NCBI GenBank assembly: GCA_019114205.1
Contig: DXFY01000067.1
Span: forward strand, 1-64,000
DNA: 64,000 bases
Direction: 5' to 3'
Source of the DNA: Candidatus Tidjanibacter gallistercoris
Lineage (GTDB): Bacteria; Bacteroidota; Bacteroidia; Bacteroidales; Rikenellaceae
Shown here piece by piece: positions 9,835-23,786 of this stretch (positions are counted from its first letter, which is position 1; each line of letters starts with the position of its first letter). The translations under genes and the position numbers were made by a program. Below the pieces are notes generated by a model. That model had not been told where the DNA came from. It saw only the letters and a list, made by a program, of their open reading frames with translations, and searched no databases.

Positions 9835-10836
9835 TCAAAAGAAAAGGCTCAGACCGACTGCCCACGTATTCTTTACGGGGCTGTCCTTGCCGGCAATCCA
9901 ATACGAACCGTCGATTCTTACCGGACCTACCGAAGCGCCGAGACCTACCGTAGCATAGCTTCCGCCGATGGATTTCTTATCGCCGTAATGATAACCGGCA
10001 CGAAGGAATCCGTGTTTGAGGAAATTGTATTCGAGACCGAGCGCTGCAATGAACGAAGCGTCGTTCGAAGGCATGAAGGTGTAACCGAGGTCGAGCGCTG
10101 CGAGAAGCTTGTGGTTCTCGGAGAAGGGCATGTCAATCGAACCGCCCAGGCGTGCATATGCAGGCATGGCGATGGGATTCGACGGAACCGAAATGTCGAG
10201 CTTCGTACCTACGTTGCTGACGTTCAGGCCCACGGCCCAAGTCGAACCGTAGAAGGACTCGATGGTGTTTTCATAGTAGAAGCCCAGGTCGAACGCGAAA
10301 GCATTGCCGGCCTTGAAAGCATCGCTGTCGAACTTCGTATAGTCCGAACGGATGTACCGCGCCGTAAGGGAGATGGCGAAGTTGTCCACAATCCTGCGGG
10401 TATAACCGATGCTGACGGCCATGTCGTTGGGACGTACCGATTCGCCCAGGGTACCGTCCCCTCCTGCGATGATGCTCTTCGGGCCGTTGAAGTAACGGAA
10501 ACCGAGCGAGAAGCCGTTGTTCTCATCGAGGTTGAAGTAACCGCCTACGGCATGGGTGGCCACTCCTTTGTTAAAATCGGGCATGACGGGATTGTATGAA
10601 TACCCGAAGCCCATCCTTTTCTCACTGAGCAGGTTGGAAGCAGCGTTGCCGAAAATTCCGAAAGGATTGTCGTTCACCGCCGTAGTTGCCATACCCATAC
10701 CGGCCGCACGAGGGTCTGCACTGTTAAGCAGAGAAGATGCCGCGCCGGTCGGACCGTCGTTCTGAGCCGATACGGTTGCGGAAATGCCGCAGAAAAGAGC
10801 CGTACAGATTGCTCCGAGCAAGATTTTTTTACTCAT
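9835..10836 (-). CDS. PorV/PorQ-family outer-membrane beta-barrel protein
   Basis: Signal peptide ending SAQN; DPRAAGMGMATTAVNDNPFGIFGNAASN motif typical of PorV/PorQ (UPF0164) proteins; C-terminal aromatic residues. Confidence 0.8.
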   Translation of the reverse strand: MSKKILLGAICTALFCGISATVSAQNDGPTGAASSLLNSADPRAAGMGMATTAVNDNPFGIFGNAASNLLSEKRMGFGYSYNPVMPDFNKGVATHAVGGYFNLDENNGFSLGFRYFNGPKSIIAGGDGTLGESVRPNDMAVSIGYTRRIVDNFAISLTARYIRSDYTKFDSDAFKAGNAFAFDLGFYYENTIESFYGSTWAVGLNVSNVGTKLDISVPSNPIAMPAYARLGGSIDMPFSENHKLLAALDLGYTFMPSNDASFIAALGLEYNFLKHGFLRAGYHYGDKKSIGGSYATVGLGASVGPVRIDGSYWIAGKDSPVKNTWAVGLSLFF

Positions 10837-10900: not shown

Positions 10901-10908
10901 CAAAAATA
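10901..10908 (-). promoter_or_regulatory. Possible -7 box (TATTTTTG on minus strand) of the PorV-like gene
   Basis: CAAAAATA on + strand, about 65 bp upstream of the start codon; no strong -33 box. Confidence 0.35.
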
Positions 10909-11127
10909 GTAATTTTTCCTTAACTTGTCTAAACAACGTACAAAAATACTCGAAAACAGGAAACGCCCCGGAAAACAGCCCCCGGTGCCGAACGGACGAT
11001 AACGGCGCCGGATATCGGAAAACGACTGAAAGCGACACAAATGAGACCAGAACACGACGCTATGTCACAATGGAAAAAACATATTTCGGACGCTTCGTAC
11101 AACACTGAACGTCCGAAAATAACACAT

Positions 11128-11150
11128 GCCGTTACTTTATAGGTAACGGC
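11128..11150 (+). repeat. Left inverted repeat / recombinase core site of inverton
   Basis: GCCGTTACTTTATAGGTAACGGC; reverse complement matches 12541-12562 over 22 nt. Confidence 0.88.
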
Positions 11151-11433
11151 ATACGGCCTGCAGGCCCTTCCGGGGGCGTTTTGAGGATTTCGGAAAAACG
11201 GGGATGCGCAGACGGCATCCGCAGGCAACAGTGCGAATGCGGAGGGGGGGACGGGAATGCGGCCCGTCGGGCAGTAGCATGGGAAAGGCATGCCGGAAGG
11301 AGCGGAAGATGTTCCCGGCGTGTATGGAACGCGGTGCCGTATGAGGCCCTGCGGTTATGTCATGGAAGCGGCACGCAAGGGTGCCAGGGGGATGCCGGAT
11401 TCGGTATCCCCTTCGTATTGCGATTGGAGCGTG

Positions 11434-12399: not shown

Positions 12400-12496
12400 A
12401 ATGCGGTTTGTTTTGGTCGAATATGTCGTTCCGCTCCGATTCGGAAAAATCGGGGCCCGTTGATTGTTCTTGCGTGTGAGAAAAAACAGTGATAAT

Positions 12497-12527
12497 TTTG
12501 TGCGGTTGCAAAAAACAATTATATTTG
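12497..12527 (+). promoter_or_regulatory. Consensus Bacteroidetes promoter inside the invertible segment, firing rightward
   Basis: TTTG (12497-12500) - N19 - TATATTTG (12520-12527); expected TSS about 12534, just inside the right IR. Confidence 0.8.
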
Positions 12528-12540
12528 CGTTGTATTATGT

Positions 12541-12562
12541 GCCGTTACCTATAAAGTAACGG
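12541..12562 (-). repeat. Right inverted repeat / recombinase core site of inverton
   Basis: GCCGTTACCTATAAAGTAACGG, inverted copy of 11128-11150. Confidence 0.88.
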
Positions 12563-12642
12563 AAAAACGGACGGAAGTATTGAGTGACGGAACAAGGCCA
12601 CATTATCTTTTTTAAAATTTATAAATTTTAATTCTTTGTGTC

Positions 12643-15336
12643 ATGAACAAAAAATTTCTAAGCGTCCTTTTGTGCGGGGCTATCATGTCCGGTTCTACGG
12701 GGGTGTTCACATCCTGTAAGAACTACGACAGCGACATCGCAAGCCTGGACGAACGCGTAACAGCAGTCGAAAAATCGGTCAGCGAGCTGAAAGCACAAAT
12801 CAGCGGCGGAGCCGTCATCACGGACGTACAGTCCACCGCGAACGGCGTTACCGTGACATTGAGCAACGGCAAAACGTTCGAACTCACGAACGGCAAGGAT
12901 GGAGCGAACGGCTCGAACGGTCAGGATGGCAAACCGGGTTCGGTCGTAACCATCGGCGACAACGGAAACTGGTTCATCGACGGTGTCGATACGGGCAAAC
13001 CATCTCAGGGAGAAAAGGGTGACAAAGGTGACCAGGGCGACCCCGGAACTCCAGGAACTCCAGGCGGTAACGGCAACAAGGGAGATAAAGGCGATACCAT
13101 ATATTATTATCCCGGCACCGAAGGCGAAGAATCCGGTTTCTGGGTGAAAGTAACACGCGACGGTGCAACGGGCAACGAAACGAAAGAGGTAACGACGGAC
13201 TCCTGGATGCCGACCGGCACCGTAACCGCCGTATGGGATACGGAAGAAGGATACCTCATTCTCAACAATGTGGAAGGTTCCGAAGAAGCCATCCGCATCC
13301 AGCTTTTCAGCACGTTGCAGTCGCTGGCATTCGTACCGCAGGTCATCGACACGAAACTGGGCATGGGCGTCATCGATTTCTATACGATTACCAAGGACAA
13401 CGCCTTCGTCGCTTCCAACACGGCGCTGGCAACGTACCGCCTGAACCCGACCAATGCGAAGGTTTCCGACATCGAATGGTCGTTCATCGACCGCACGGTA
13501 GCAACCCGCGTGGCAGGCGATAACTACACACTGCTCGCCATCGACGGCGAACCGGAAGTGCTTGCAGGCAGCGTGAATTTCAATGTCATCGCCGAAGACG
13601 ACCTGTCCGACCTGAAAGCCGACCAGGAAGCCATCGTAGCCCTCCGGGCGGTAGATACTGATGATGCGGAAATCGTATCCGACTACGCAGCGGTAAAGGT
13701 TACCGAGTTGACGGATTTCGCCATCATCAATAAAGAAAAGCTGAAATACGACGAGGACAACAACGTGGATTACACCGAATCCCTCCCCGTAGTCGAACTC
13801 AGCACGACCCTTCCCGCTATCGGTGCAACAGCTGATGCATACTTCAAATACGACGAGTCGAAAGACCTCCACGATGTCGTAGAAACGTGGGCAGAGGAGA
13901 TAAGCAAAGTCCTCACCGATGCTTCCGTGCGTTTCACTCCCGTTTACGCATTCGAGAAAGTAGACAAATACCTCGGTACGGACGGTGCTACCGACCAGCA
14001 GCAGTTCGTAACCCTCGACGAGGAAACGGGCATCGTGACCGTAAACAAGGAATGGCTCGCACAGGGTACCGCAGCAGTAGGCCGTACCCCCGTATTCAAG
14101 GTAACGTCGCTCGTGAACAACACCGCGATAGCTTCCGCCTACATCAAACTCGAAATCACCAAAGAAGCCGTTTCCCAGGAGGAGAAAGAAGACTTCGAAA
14201 AGACCTGGAACGTCAATCAGGGCGTTGCTATCGAATACAGCGACATCGACCCGACTCTCGGATTCACCGAGAAGTACTCCTGGGCTACGTTCAATGCCGA
14301 AATCCTCGACGTACTCGGAATAACGCCGGATGAATTCATGAATCGGTACGACATAGCAAACTATACCATCGTTCCGAACAACGGCACGGTAACAGGCGTA
14401 ACGATAACCTCCAACGTGGTGGACGGAACCACCGAGACGGAAATCGCAAACATCCATATCAAAAATACGGCAGCATTCGGCGCGAAGACTTTCACGCTTA
14501 CCTATCCTGCAAAGAACAATTATCAGGACCCGAACATCGTCATCACGATTGCATACACCATCGAGCATGACGACAGCCACATGCCTGCACTCAACCCCGA
14601 CTACCTCCTCGCAGGTACGACCAATACGGTACAGGTAAAGGGCCGGGAAGTAAACGACACCTGGAAGCTGAATGCAGCGATGAAAGAATTCTGCAAAGAC
14701 TACCTCAACAATTACGATGTAACGGCGGGCAACCATACCGACCTGTATTTCCGCTTCAAAGACAACCAACCCGTAACCGGCGTTGCCATCACGGGCTCGA
14801 ACTGGAGCGACCAGGAAATCGCACTGACTACTCCGCTGACACAGAACGAAGATGCGAGAACTTACGAGGTCGAAATGGTCGCTAAGTGCGTCAACGGCGA
14901 ACTTTGCACGAAGGCATTCATCGTACGCTTCGTAAGGCCGTTCAATGCTACGATAGACGCAACAGTCCTCAAGACGCTCACCGCAACAGCGGATACCGAA
15001 GACATAGCCAAACTGGTGGTCATCAGGGATACGGACAACCGGGTGGTATATGAAAACGGCGCACTGACGACGCTCGGCACGCAGACGTACAAGCTGAATG
15101 CCTCGACGCTGACCTTCGCCTATTCGATAGACTACACCAACGACAGCGAAGCATCGTTCGGCGGCGGCCTGACTATCGACGCAACCAACGGAATGCTGAC
15201 GTGGCTCAACCAGGGAGGCGACCTGCAAACCGACAAAAAAGCCACTTCCGTAGCCGTCATCACGATACCCGACTTGGCCGATATCAAGGCGACCGGTACG
15301 ATAACCGTGCTTTCTACCGCGAACAGCAAAGAATAA
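12643..15336 (+). CDS. Large S-layer-like surface lipoprotein with coiled-coil and collagen-like N-terminal region
   Basis: 897 aa; MNKKFLSVLLCGAIMSGSTGVFTSCKNYDSDI resembles the N-terminus of Bacteroides BT1927-type S-layer-like lipoproteins; heptad region then GEKGDKGDQGDPGTPGTPGGNGNKGDKGD. Confidence 0.85.
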   Translation: MNKKFLSVLLCGAIMSGSTGVFTSCKNYDSDIASLDERVTAVEKSVSELKAQISGGAVITDVQSTANGVTVTLSNGKTFELTNGKDGANGSNGQDGKPGSVVTIGDNGNWFIDGVDTGKPSQGEKGDKGDQGDPGTPGTPGGNGNKGDKGDTIYYYPGTEGEESGFWVKVTRDGATGNETKEVTTDSWMPTGTVTAVWDTEEGYLILNNVEGSEEAIRIQLFSTLQSLAFVPQVIDTKLGMGVIDFYTITKDNAFVASNTALATYRLNPTNAKVSDIEWSFIDRTVATRVAGDNYTLLAIDGEPEVLAGSVNFNVIAEDDLSDLKADQEAIVALRAVDTDDAEIVSDYAAVKVTELTDFAIINKEKLKYDEDNNVDYTESLPVVELSTTLPAIGATADAYFKYDESKDLHDVVETWAEEISKVLTDASVRFTPVYAFEKVDKYLGTDGATDQQQFVTLDEETGIVTVNKEWLAQGTAAVGRTPVFKVTSLVNNTAIASAYIKLEITKEAVSQEEKEDFEKTWNVNQGVAIEYSDIDPTLGFTEKYSWATFNAEILDVLGITPDEFMNRYDIANYTIVPNNGTVTGVTITSNVVDGTTETEIANIHIKNTAAFGAKTFTLTYPAKNNYQDPNIVITIAYTIEHDDSHMPALNPDYLLAGTTNTVQVKGREVNDTWKLNAAMKEFCKDYLNNYDVTAGNHTDLYFRFKDNQPVTGVAITGSNWSDQEIALTTPLTQNEDARTYEVEMVAKCVNGELCTKAFIVRFVRPFNATIDATVLKTLTATADTEDIAKLVVIRDTDNRVVYENGALTTLGTQTYKLNASTLTFAYSIDYTNDSEASFGGGLTIDATNGMLTWLNQGGDLQTDKKATSVAVITIPDLADIKATGTITVLSTANSKE

Positions 15337-15391
15337 CGGTAAAAAGACTGTTCCCCGAATAGTCTGGTTTCAGGATTATTAATTGCAGGAA

Positions 15392-15421
15392 GGGAAGGCT
15401 CCGACGGGGCCTTCCCTTTTT
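15392..15421 (+). terminator. Rho-independent terminator of the S-layer-like gene
   Basis: GGGAAGGC-TCCGACGGG-GCCTTCCC-TTTTT. Confidence 0.85.
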
Positions 15422-15524
15422 GTCGTCCGTGTCCGGAACCGCAGCACAGAGCAGCACGTTACAGTGCAGGGCAGCGCCCCGGCCGCAGGACAACGGCCGC
15501 AAGGATGCCGCCTGCCGTACCGCC

Positions 15525-15747: not shown

Positions 15748-16923
15748 CTATTGCAGTCCGTAGGCGTACATCTTCACGTCCGCAGCCGTTATCGTATCGT
15801 CGCACAGAATGACGAGCCGTTCCACCACATTGCGCAGCTCTCGGATATTGCCCGTCCACGGCAGCTTCTTCAGCTCGTCCAGCGCACGGTGCTCTATCTT
15901 CTTGACCGGCACGTTGTATTCGCCGCAGATGACTTCGAGAAAATGGTCCACCAATATCGGAATGTCGTCGATTCGCTCGGCCAGCGTCGGTACATGAATG
16001 ACGATAACGCTCAGCCGGTGGAACAGGTCTTCACGGAAATTTCCATGCGTTATTTCACTGGGAATATCCTTGTTCGTAGCAGCCAGCACACGGACGTTCA
16101 CGTCTATGTCGCGGTCGCTGCCCACGCGCGTTATCTTACGCTCCTGCAAAACGCGCAGTACTTTTGCCTGCGCCGGAAGGGACATGTCCCCTATCTCGTC
16201 CAGGAACAGCGTTCCGTTATGAGCCTGCTCGAACTTTCCCTTGCGCTGCTTGATGGCCGATGTGAAGGCTCCCTTCTCGTGCCCGAACAGTTCGCTCTCG
16301 ATGAGCTCGGAAGGGATGGCTGCACAGTTCACTTCGACGAAAGGGCCGTCGCGGCGGCGGCTCTTTTCATGGAGCCACCGCGCCACGAGTTCTTTGCCCG
16401 TTCCGTTAGCGCCCATGATGAGTACCCGCGCATCGGTCGGCGCCACCTTGTCGATAAGTCGGTTCAAATGCATGACGGGGGCCGATTCACCTACGATTCG
16501 TCCCACCCGGAACGCACCTGCACGCACCTTGCACACCGGTACCGCCTCTTCGACGGGCGGTACGGGGGCGTCGGCCACCTCCGCAGCAGCGGCGCCCGGC
16601 GTTTTGGCAAGCCCTTTCTTTATGGCATCCAGCAGCCTGTTCATGTTCACGGGTTTCGTGATGAAATCCACGGCACCCTGCTGCATGGCAAGCACGGCGC
16701 TTTCGGGGCTGCTGTCATGGGACAGTCTTATCCACGGTGTGGAAGTTCTCAGCGGGGAATCCGGTTGGCCGCACAGCAACAAGTCGAAATTCCTATGCGC
16801 ATAGGCGGTCATCCCGGCAATGGTGTCTTCGGCGACTTCTACCGCATGGCCCTCATACTCCAAACGCTCTTTCAGAGTATTGCGCATGCTGCGCGAAGGA
16901 TCTATTACCAGAATATTGGCCAT
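15748..16923 (-). CDS. Sigma-54 interaction (AAA+) domain protein with degenerate receiver domain, NtrC-like
   Basis: Walker A GANGTGKE, GHEKGAFTSA, FLDEIGDM, WTGNIRELRNVVER; protein ends just after the AAA+ domain. Confidence 0.9.
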   Translation of the reverse strand: MANILVIDPSRSMRNTLKERLEYEGHAVEVAEDTIAGMTAYAHRNFDLLLCGQPDSPLRTSTPWIRLSHDSSPESAVLAMQQGAVDFITKPVNMNRLLDAIKKGLAKTPGAAAAEVADAPVPPVEEAVPVCKVRAGAFRVGRIVGESAPVMHLNRLIDKVAPTDARVLIMGANGTGKELVARWLHEKSRRRDGPFVEVNCAAIPSELIESELFGHEKGAFTSAIKQRKGKFEQAHNGTLFLDEIGDMSLPAQAKVLRVLQERKITRVGSDRDIDVNVRVLAATNKDIPSEITHGNFREDLFHRLSVIVIHVPTLAERIDDIPILVDHFLEVICGEYNVPVKKIEHRALDELKKLPWTGNIRELRNVVERLVILCDDTITAADVKMYAYGLQ

Positions 16924-17167
16924 AGTCGGAGGTTAAAATGTTACGGTAAAATTTGATTTCCCCAAAAAATCACACTAACTTTGTACAAAGTTAAGTAATT
17001 AGTTTTTCTTGTCAAAAGACATGCTGTTTTTTTTCTCTTACCTATCAGCATTTTTGACCTTCATATTTCACATATTTTACCGGACAGGCCCCCTGAAAGG
17101 GCACGGACCGGGCGCTATCGTGAAAAGGGGGCCGAGTCTTGCGGCATGCGACGACTGAACACCTTTT

Positions 17168-17815
17168 ATGGAAAAGAACTACAATATCTATCGGAAAAAC
17201 CTGCAACTGCCCGAATACGGCAGGCACATCCACCAAATGGTGGACAACCTCATGGCCATCGAAGACCGCGAGGAGCGCAACCGCAAGGCCCGCGTGGTAA
17301 TAAACGTCATGGGGAACCTCAACCCGCTGCTGCGCGACACCCCGGAGTTCACCCACAAGCTCTGGGACCACATGTTCCTCATGTCGGATTTCAAACTGGA
17401 CGTGGACTCGCCCTACCCGATACCCACCTCCATGACGCTCACGCCCGTGCCGCGGCGCATGGAATACCCCGACGACAAGGTGGGGCTGAAACACTACGGC
17501 AAGTATGTAAAGAGAGTCATCCGTTCGCTCGAAGGAGTGGAAGACCAGGAGGCGGTCCAGGAAGTTCTCGGCGACATCGCGCGGTACATGCGCACCAAAA
17601 GTTACGAATACAACCAGGAGCATCCCAACAACGAGGCCATCATCAAGGACATAAAGAAAATGTCGGACTACCGCATCAGCGTGGACGAAGATGCCCTGAG
17701 CCTCATCAAGAGCGAATACAAACAGGCCCCCGTCCGCAACAAAAAGCCGATGTACGCCAACAAGAAGAACGGCAAGAACAACAAGGGGCCGCAGCGGCAC
17801 GGCTTCCAGAAATAA
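17168..17815 (+). CDS. DUF4290 domain-containing protein
   Basis: MEKNYNIYRKNLQLPEYGRHIHQMVDNLMAIEDREERN pattern typical of this Bacteroidetes family. Confidence 0.8.
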   Translation: MEKNYNIYRKNLQLPEYGRHIHQMVDNLMAIEDREERNRKARVVINVMGNLNPLLRDTPEFTHKLWDHMFLMSDFKLDVDSPYPIPTSMTLTPVPRRMEYPDDKVGLKHYGKYVKRVIRSLEGVEDQEAVQEVLGDIARYMRTKSYEYNQEHPNNEAIIKDIKKMSDYRISVDEDALSLIKSEYKQAPVRNKKPMYANKKNGKNNKGPQRHGFQK

Positions 17816-23617: not shown

Positions 23618-23648
23618 TTTGCACAAACAAATATTTGCTATATATTTG
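23618..23648 (+). promoter_or_regulatory. Consensus promoter of tRNA-Asn
   Basis: TTTG-N19-TATATTTG, identical in spacing to the inverton promoter. Confidence 0.75.
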
Positions 23649-23712: not shown

Positions 23713-23786
23713 TCCTCAATAGCTCAGTTGGTTAGAGCACCTGACTGTTAATCAGGGGGTCCCAGGTTCAAGTCCTGGTTGAGGAG
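23713..23786 (+). tRNA. tRNA-Asn (GTT anticodon)
   Basis: TCCTCAA/TTGAGGA acceptor, anticodon loop CCTGA-CTGTTAA-TCAGG, T-arm CCAGG-TTCAAGT-CCTGG. Confidence 0.96.

Follow-up and report, generated by a model that had tools for sequence, protein, structure and literature searches.

A candidate phase-variation cassette with an invertible promoter and its own recombinase gene upstream of a lipoprotein gene in Candidatus Tidjanibacter gallistercoris

The 64,000-nucleotide stretch of Candidatus Tidjanibacter gallistercoris DNA that was analysed here (the window, on contig C52 of a 2.03 Mb genome) carries a 1,434-bp segment between a PorV-family gene and a gene encoding a large lipoprotein (Table 1). 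The segment is bounded by a perfect inverted repeat (23/23 positions, 11129-11151 and 12540-12562) with 1,388 nt between the arms, and it contains a gene for a full-length tyrosine recombinase with intact catalytic residues. The active-site residues R151, K177, R254, H277 and Y286 of this enzyme are invariant across five genomes. By eye, no canonical promoter of the recombinase gene was recognised in 12400-12496. Its leader holds an 18-nt inverted repeat (CCGATTCGGAAAAATCGG) that was seen in the window only among the compared genomes, and a distant second tyrosine recombinase (27% identity) is encoded elsewhere in the same genome (G000:C8:1805-2623).

Table 1. Features of the invertible segment and its flanks in the window.
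Feature	Position	Strand	Remarks
PorV/PorQ-family outer-membrane protein gene, OFF side	9835..10836	-	
PorV's own -7 element TATTTTTG	10901..10908	-	outside the segment; conserved in six genomes
Second hairpin and U-run between segment and PorV	11074..11118	-	-17 kcal/mol, z -4.5
Terminator-like: PorV-side palindrome, then TTATTTT	11116..11155	-	reads out of the segment
PorV-side recombination site	11129..11151	-	core palindrome 11129-11149, CCGTTAC-TTTATAG-GTAACGG; 7-bp spacer 11136-11142
Tyrosine recombinase gene, 321 aa	11434..12399	-	Phage_int_SAM_5 and Phage_integrase; within the segment
-33 element TTTG of outward promoter	12497..12500	+	from sequence and conservation
-7 element TATATTTG	12520..12527	+	ends 14 bp before the core palindrome
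Expected transcription start	12533..12535	+	inferred from consensus spacing
5' leader of predicted ON transcript	12536..12642	+	site palindrome at its 5' end, forming a 7-bp hairpin; U-run absent in ON
Lipoprotein-side recombination site	12540..12562	+	core 12542-12562, CCGTTAC-CTATAAA-GTAACGG; spacer 12549-12555
DUF4988/collagen-like lipoprotein gene, 897 aa, putatively switched	12643..15336	+	predicted tandem beta-sandwich domains
Probable terminator after lipoprotein gene	15390..15424	+	hairpin and T-run

The ATG that the first-pass annotation of this DNA had placed at 12643 indeed opens the reading frame of the lipoprotein. The protein starts in the manner of lipoproteins (MNKKFLS...TSCKNYDSD) and continues with a coiled coil, a collagen-like stretch and then predicted beta-sandwich domains; DUF4988 is present in 12 of its 15 relatives. 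A structure model of fair quality (mean pLDDT 80, pTM 0.43) was used for a fold search, which returned tandem cadherin/Ig-like proteins, with one bacterial S-layer protein among many matches, at low global TM. At the level of the model, these matches speak for a long string of Ig-like domains and for nothing beyond that, and a search of solved structures by sequence gave no match to the lipoprotein. Since the fold matches are non-specific and no solved structure matched, what supports the designation S-layer-like is the common type of switch and the family resemblance; the protein family and the analogy to BT1927 of Bacteroides thetaiotaomicron make it plausible.

The inverted repeat is made of two palindromic core sites, CCGTTAC-7 bp-GTAACGG, rather than being a plain 23-bp repeat. 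A right recombination site had been proposed at 12541; the site is present, and its arm starts at 12540, which puts 12541 one base inside. The 7-bp spacer CTATAAA is itself non-palindromic, so the site has a direction and two opposed sites would be expected to invert the DNA between them. Spacers are identical within every pair of the paired loci that we compared, while about a dozen spacers differ between loci; pairs with the recombinase inside were accepted with up to one spacer difference and none showed any. The change to CTATTAA in the congener G019 affects both of its sites. Matching spacers are a requirement of strand exchange by tyrosine recombinases. The window site CCGTTACCTATAAAGTAAC fits CCGTTACCTABVRAGTAAC, the S-layer repeat consensus of B. 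thetaiotaomicron, at every position (PMC12118408).

An outward promoter had been read from the letters at the lipoprotein end of the segment, and both of its elements were found where they had been reported, with a gap of exactly 19 nt on the + strand. The usual promoter consensus of Bacteroidota is TTTG-N19-21-TAnnTTTG. This pattern has seven perfect matches in the 64 kb versus 0.25 in dinucleotide shuffles; a scan for the sigma-70 consensus gave no excess over shuffles, as is expected for this phylum. The likeness to the tRNA-Asn promoter was likewise confirmed, since TTTG-N19-TATATTTG recurs with equal spacing at 23618-23648, upstream of the tRNA at 23713. Within 12401-12642, a stretch of 242 bases ahead of the gene, any match of this kind would arise on the + strand with a probability of about 0.011. 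Moreover, neither element varies among five Tidjanibacter genomes, in which the remainder of that stretch diverges, and because of this conservation amid diverging surroundings a chance origin is excluded far more strongly than by the probability. The position of the promoter is plain from the letters, and it would be expected to be a strong Bacteroidota promoter. Elsewhere in the window, a regulator gene (15748-16923, - strand) and a gene at 17168 (+ strand) are separated by DNA with two perfect promoters that diverge and overlap (16952-17016); this promoter pair is present in G002 too.

Four further Tidjanibacter genomes share the locus order of PorV-family gene, recombinase-bearing segment and lipoprotein gene. 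The site was found in 5 of 268 genomes of the family, all of them Tidjanibacter and each with exactly one pair in opposite orientations; as a control, the backwards pattern matched two other genomes of the 268, once each. In all five Tidjanibacter the flanks are fixed and the orientation of the segment varies, with the promoter pointing to the lipoprotein gene in the window and in G022 and to PorV in G001, G002 and G019. The first-pass annotation had placed the promoter in invertible DNA and the gene outside it, which is what we see, the recombinase gene being inside as well. It had also held that inversion takes the promoter off the gene and that the window shows the ON state. This reading is well supported at the level of sequence, because the promoter orientation differs relative to fixed flanks among congeners (two towards the lipoprotein gene, three away). 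The outcome of inversion needs one addition: as proposed, the promoter would leave the lipoprotein gene, and it would then face the PorV-family gene, not nothing. The between-species orientations support inversion as a recurrent event, with the reservation that such differences could be old, rare events.

A scan based on recombinase alignment identified 37 loci, nearly all in Bacteroidales, and a relative of the window lipoprotein gene adjoins the segment in most of them. Two layouts can be distinguished: either the recombinase gene lies inside the segment, mostly of 1.15-1.55 kb (Tidjanibacter, B. stercorirosoris, B. cellulosilyticus, Muribaculaceae and others), or a segment of about 300 bp lies just past it (B. 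faecis and others). Where the recombinase is inside and a single lipoprotein gene is present, the promoter end points away from that gene in 13 loci and towards it in five, namely the window, G022, L043, L047 and L108; for L043 and L047, where the far side is cut by a contig end, the orientation was taken from the side adjoining the recombinase start, and a perfect promoter was looked for in both and not found. At L108 (G839:C1:1417000-1430000) a single site was found, the similarity to the recombinase stops at residue 150 and the promoter points towards the lipoprotein gene; this locus looks frozen ON. At L039, L041, L046/L109 and L056 the cassette has a lipoprotein gene on either side, the two being divergent, and is accompanied by perfect inverted repeats (75-1387 bp) that extend into or towards each of them; a flip there would exchange surface proteins instead of switching one ON and OFF. 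In L110 (G751:C27:1-8000), the sites are about 5 kb apart with a lipoprotein gene between them, giving a larger invertible segment.

In a search that allowed gaps of 0-60 bp and took in both layouts, the -7 element ended 12-16 bp short of the palindrome at each of the 28 true sites, the distance being exactly 14 bp at 20 of these; one extra promoter match, 8 bp away in L037, does not represent a true site. We give this spacing without a probability, since many of the loci are related. As it is fixed, transcription is expected to start a few bases upstream of the palindrome, which should form the beginning of the RNA. A recombinase bound to its site would, by the same geometry, overlap the initially transcribed region.

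The two sides of the segment differ in what such an RNA would form. In the window, the ON leader begins with a 7-bp stem (-8.6 kcal/mol) lacking a U-run, and the whole ON leader shows no unusual structure (z -0.5), whereas in the OFF leader a 13-bp stem (-16.4 kcal/mol) would form, with UUAUUUU after it. For each recombinase-inside locus, junction transcripts were derived in both directions and a terminator was called where a stem of at least 7 bp was accompanied by a U-run. Stem and U-run were found towards the non-lipoprotein side in 10 of 15 single-gene loci and towards the lipoprotein side in none of the 15. When two-headed loci were included, at least 6 U in 8 occurred at 2 of 23 lipoprotein-facing sites versus 10 of 15 sites facing the other way (Fisher p=0.0003), and by clade the U-run was present on the non-lipoprotein side in 5/7 and on the lipoprotein side in 0/7 (p=0.02); these p values are descriptive, because the seven clades were hand-drawn after the data had been seen and the hypothesis itself had arisen from these loci. 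G002 has a weak U-run (4/8), L048, L066 and L067 lack one, and the two-headed L046 has U-runs on both sides, each facing a lipoprotein gene. One-sided termination was also considered as a general property of the site and rejected, being mostly absent in the invertons of about 300 bp beside the recombinase. In the window, the crossover site seems to act as a transcriptional stop as well when the orientation is OFF, so that OFF is predicted to consist of immediate termination plus a moved promoter; the predicted terminator begins nearly at the start site, where the efficiency of termination is uncertain.

Taken together, we consider it very likely that the locus is a self-contained phase-variation cassette, with ON transcription into the lipoprotein gene, OFF by termination, and PorV insulated. 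Judging from family and anatomy, the recombinase made from within the segment would bind the half-sites CCGTTAC and GTAACGG at both ends, and strand exchange across the identical 7-bp spacers would invert the 1,434 bp. In the orientation of the window, the promoter would read through the weak hairpin into the lipoprotein gene; once flipped, the palindrome and the PorV flank would together form the stronger hairpin with its U-run, the transcript should stop within about 45 nt, and PorV would be run by its own promoter. For recombinase-inside S-layer-type invertons as a class, we see even prospects for a broader proposal: the palindrome would serve as recombinase site and, on the non-lipoprotein side only, as terminator stem, a flip would turn the promoter from productive to aborted, and the spacing of about 14 bp would put the recombinase on the initially transcribed region and couple flipping to transcription.

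The orientation found in G001, G002 and G019, where the promoter faces a PorV gene reading away from the segment, might instead suggest a two-gene toggle that makes the lipoprotein in one state and an extra PorV-family protein in the other, as might the like cassettes between two divergent lipoprotein genes (L039, L046, L056, L041). We regard such a toggle as unlikely. PorV has its own conserved -7 block, kept even in G020, which has no cassette there; a palindrome and T-run separate the flipped promoter from PorV in four of the five Tidjanibacter species, and the window has the second hairpin and U-run as well. Given these terminator-like structures and PorV's own -7 block, the flipped promoter probably yields only short RNA.

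Two further readings would deprive the segment of a present role. A decayed or frozen cassette, with ancestral inversions explaining both orientations and no flipping now in this strain, would agree with orientation varying only between species in our data, and L108 illustrates that such loci can lose one of their two sites together with half the recombinase gene; we think this very improbable here, where recombinase and catalytic residues are intact, both sites are perfect and the spacers match. The lipoprotein gene could also be driven by a fixed promoter in the leader at 12563-12642, leaving the segment without control. That leader is A/T-rich and has two -7-like octamers with a single mismatch (12604, 12622), but neither has TTTG 19-21 nt upstream and, unlike the segment promoter, no promoter-like element of the leader is conserved across the five species; we therefore give this explanation hardly any credence.

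On its anatomy, we file the cassette under the tyrosine-recombinase promoter invertons of Bacteroidales: an intact recombinase, paired sites with identical spacers, an outward promoter inside and both orientations between species are all present, and the window site also agrees with the BT1927-type repeat consensus. We do not classify it as an orthologue of BT1927, because no BT1926-like partner was recognised: up to the opposite-strand regulator (15748-16923), the ORF list offers no plausible gene on the strand of the lipoprotein gene, and in most relatives, again judged from ORF lists, none was recognised either. By analogy, the locus would work like the BT1927 switch of B. thetaiotaomicron, which also has an invertible promoter with consensus repeats before a large surface lipoprotein (PMC12548429, PMC12118408, PMC12578637). 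The BT1927 product is a surface lipoprotein of about 100 kDa, and the locus lies near a site-specific integrase and is mostly OFF (PMC12548429, PMC12118408, PMC12578637), and BT1927, with its inverting promoter, is reported to be expressed in about 1 in 1,000 cells (PMC12548429). The prevalence of OFF among the single-gene loci (13 versus 5) agrees with this. The window differs in having the recombinase inside a 1.4-kb segment, whereas Bacteroides relatives such as B. faecis have a segment of about 300 bp beside it, and in having no recognised BT1926-like barrel gene downstream.

Tsr19/BF2766 of B. fragilis is likewise a tyrosine recombinase that inverts promoters of surface genes, and in that species transcription is lower the more repeats separate a promoter from its gene (PMC4747536). 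Two promoters, one local and one distant, are targets of Tsr19, whereas the window genome has one site pair only. Hin is a serine recombinase, an enzyme unrelated to the tyrosine recombinases. The Hin flagellar switch of Salmonella is like the window in carrying its recombinase gene inside the invertible segment (PMC5903667). An orientation-dependent intrinsic terminator at a repeat has been proposed for the OFF state of cwpV in C. difficile (PMC2784873), which parallels the terminator predicted here; the cwpV promoter, however, lies outside the segment, while in the window both promoter and recombinase are inside.

This kind of switch is already known from Bacteroides, where the S-layer-type switch has been linked to phage and complement resistance, and the anatomy of the window adds details to it: the group of hosts, a recurring class of loci with the recombinase inside (possibly described earlier), the fixed spacing of promoter and site, and a predicted terminator on one side only. 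Our analysis thus extends the phase-variable S-layer-type switch from Bacteroides to Tidjanibacter (Rikenellaceae), in the form of a compact one-piece cassette. The model predicts short abortive RNAs and a coupling of recombination to transcription, and the one-sided terminator together with the fixed spacing would explain how the OFF state could be tight while neighbouring genes are spared.
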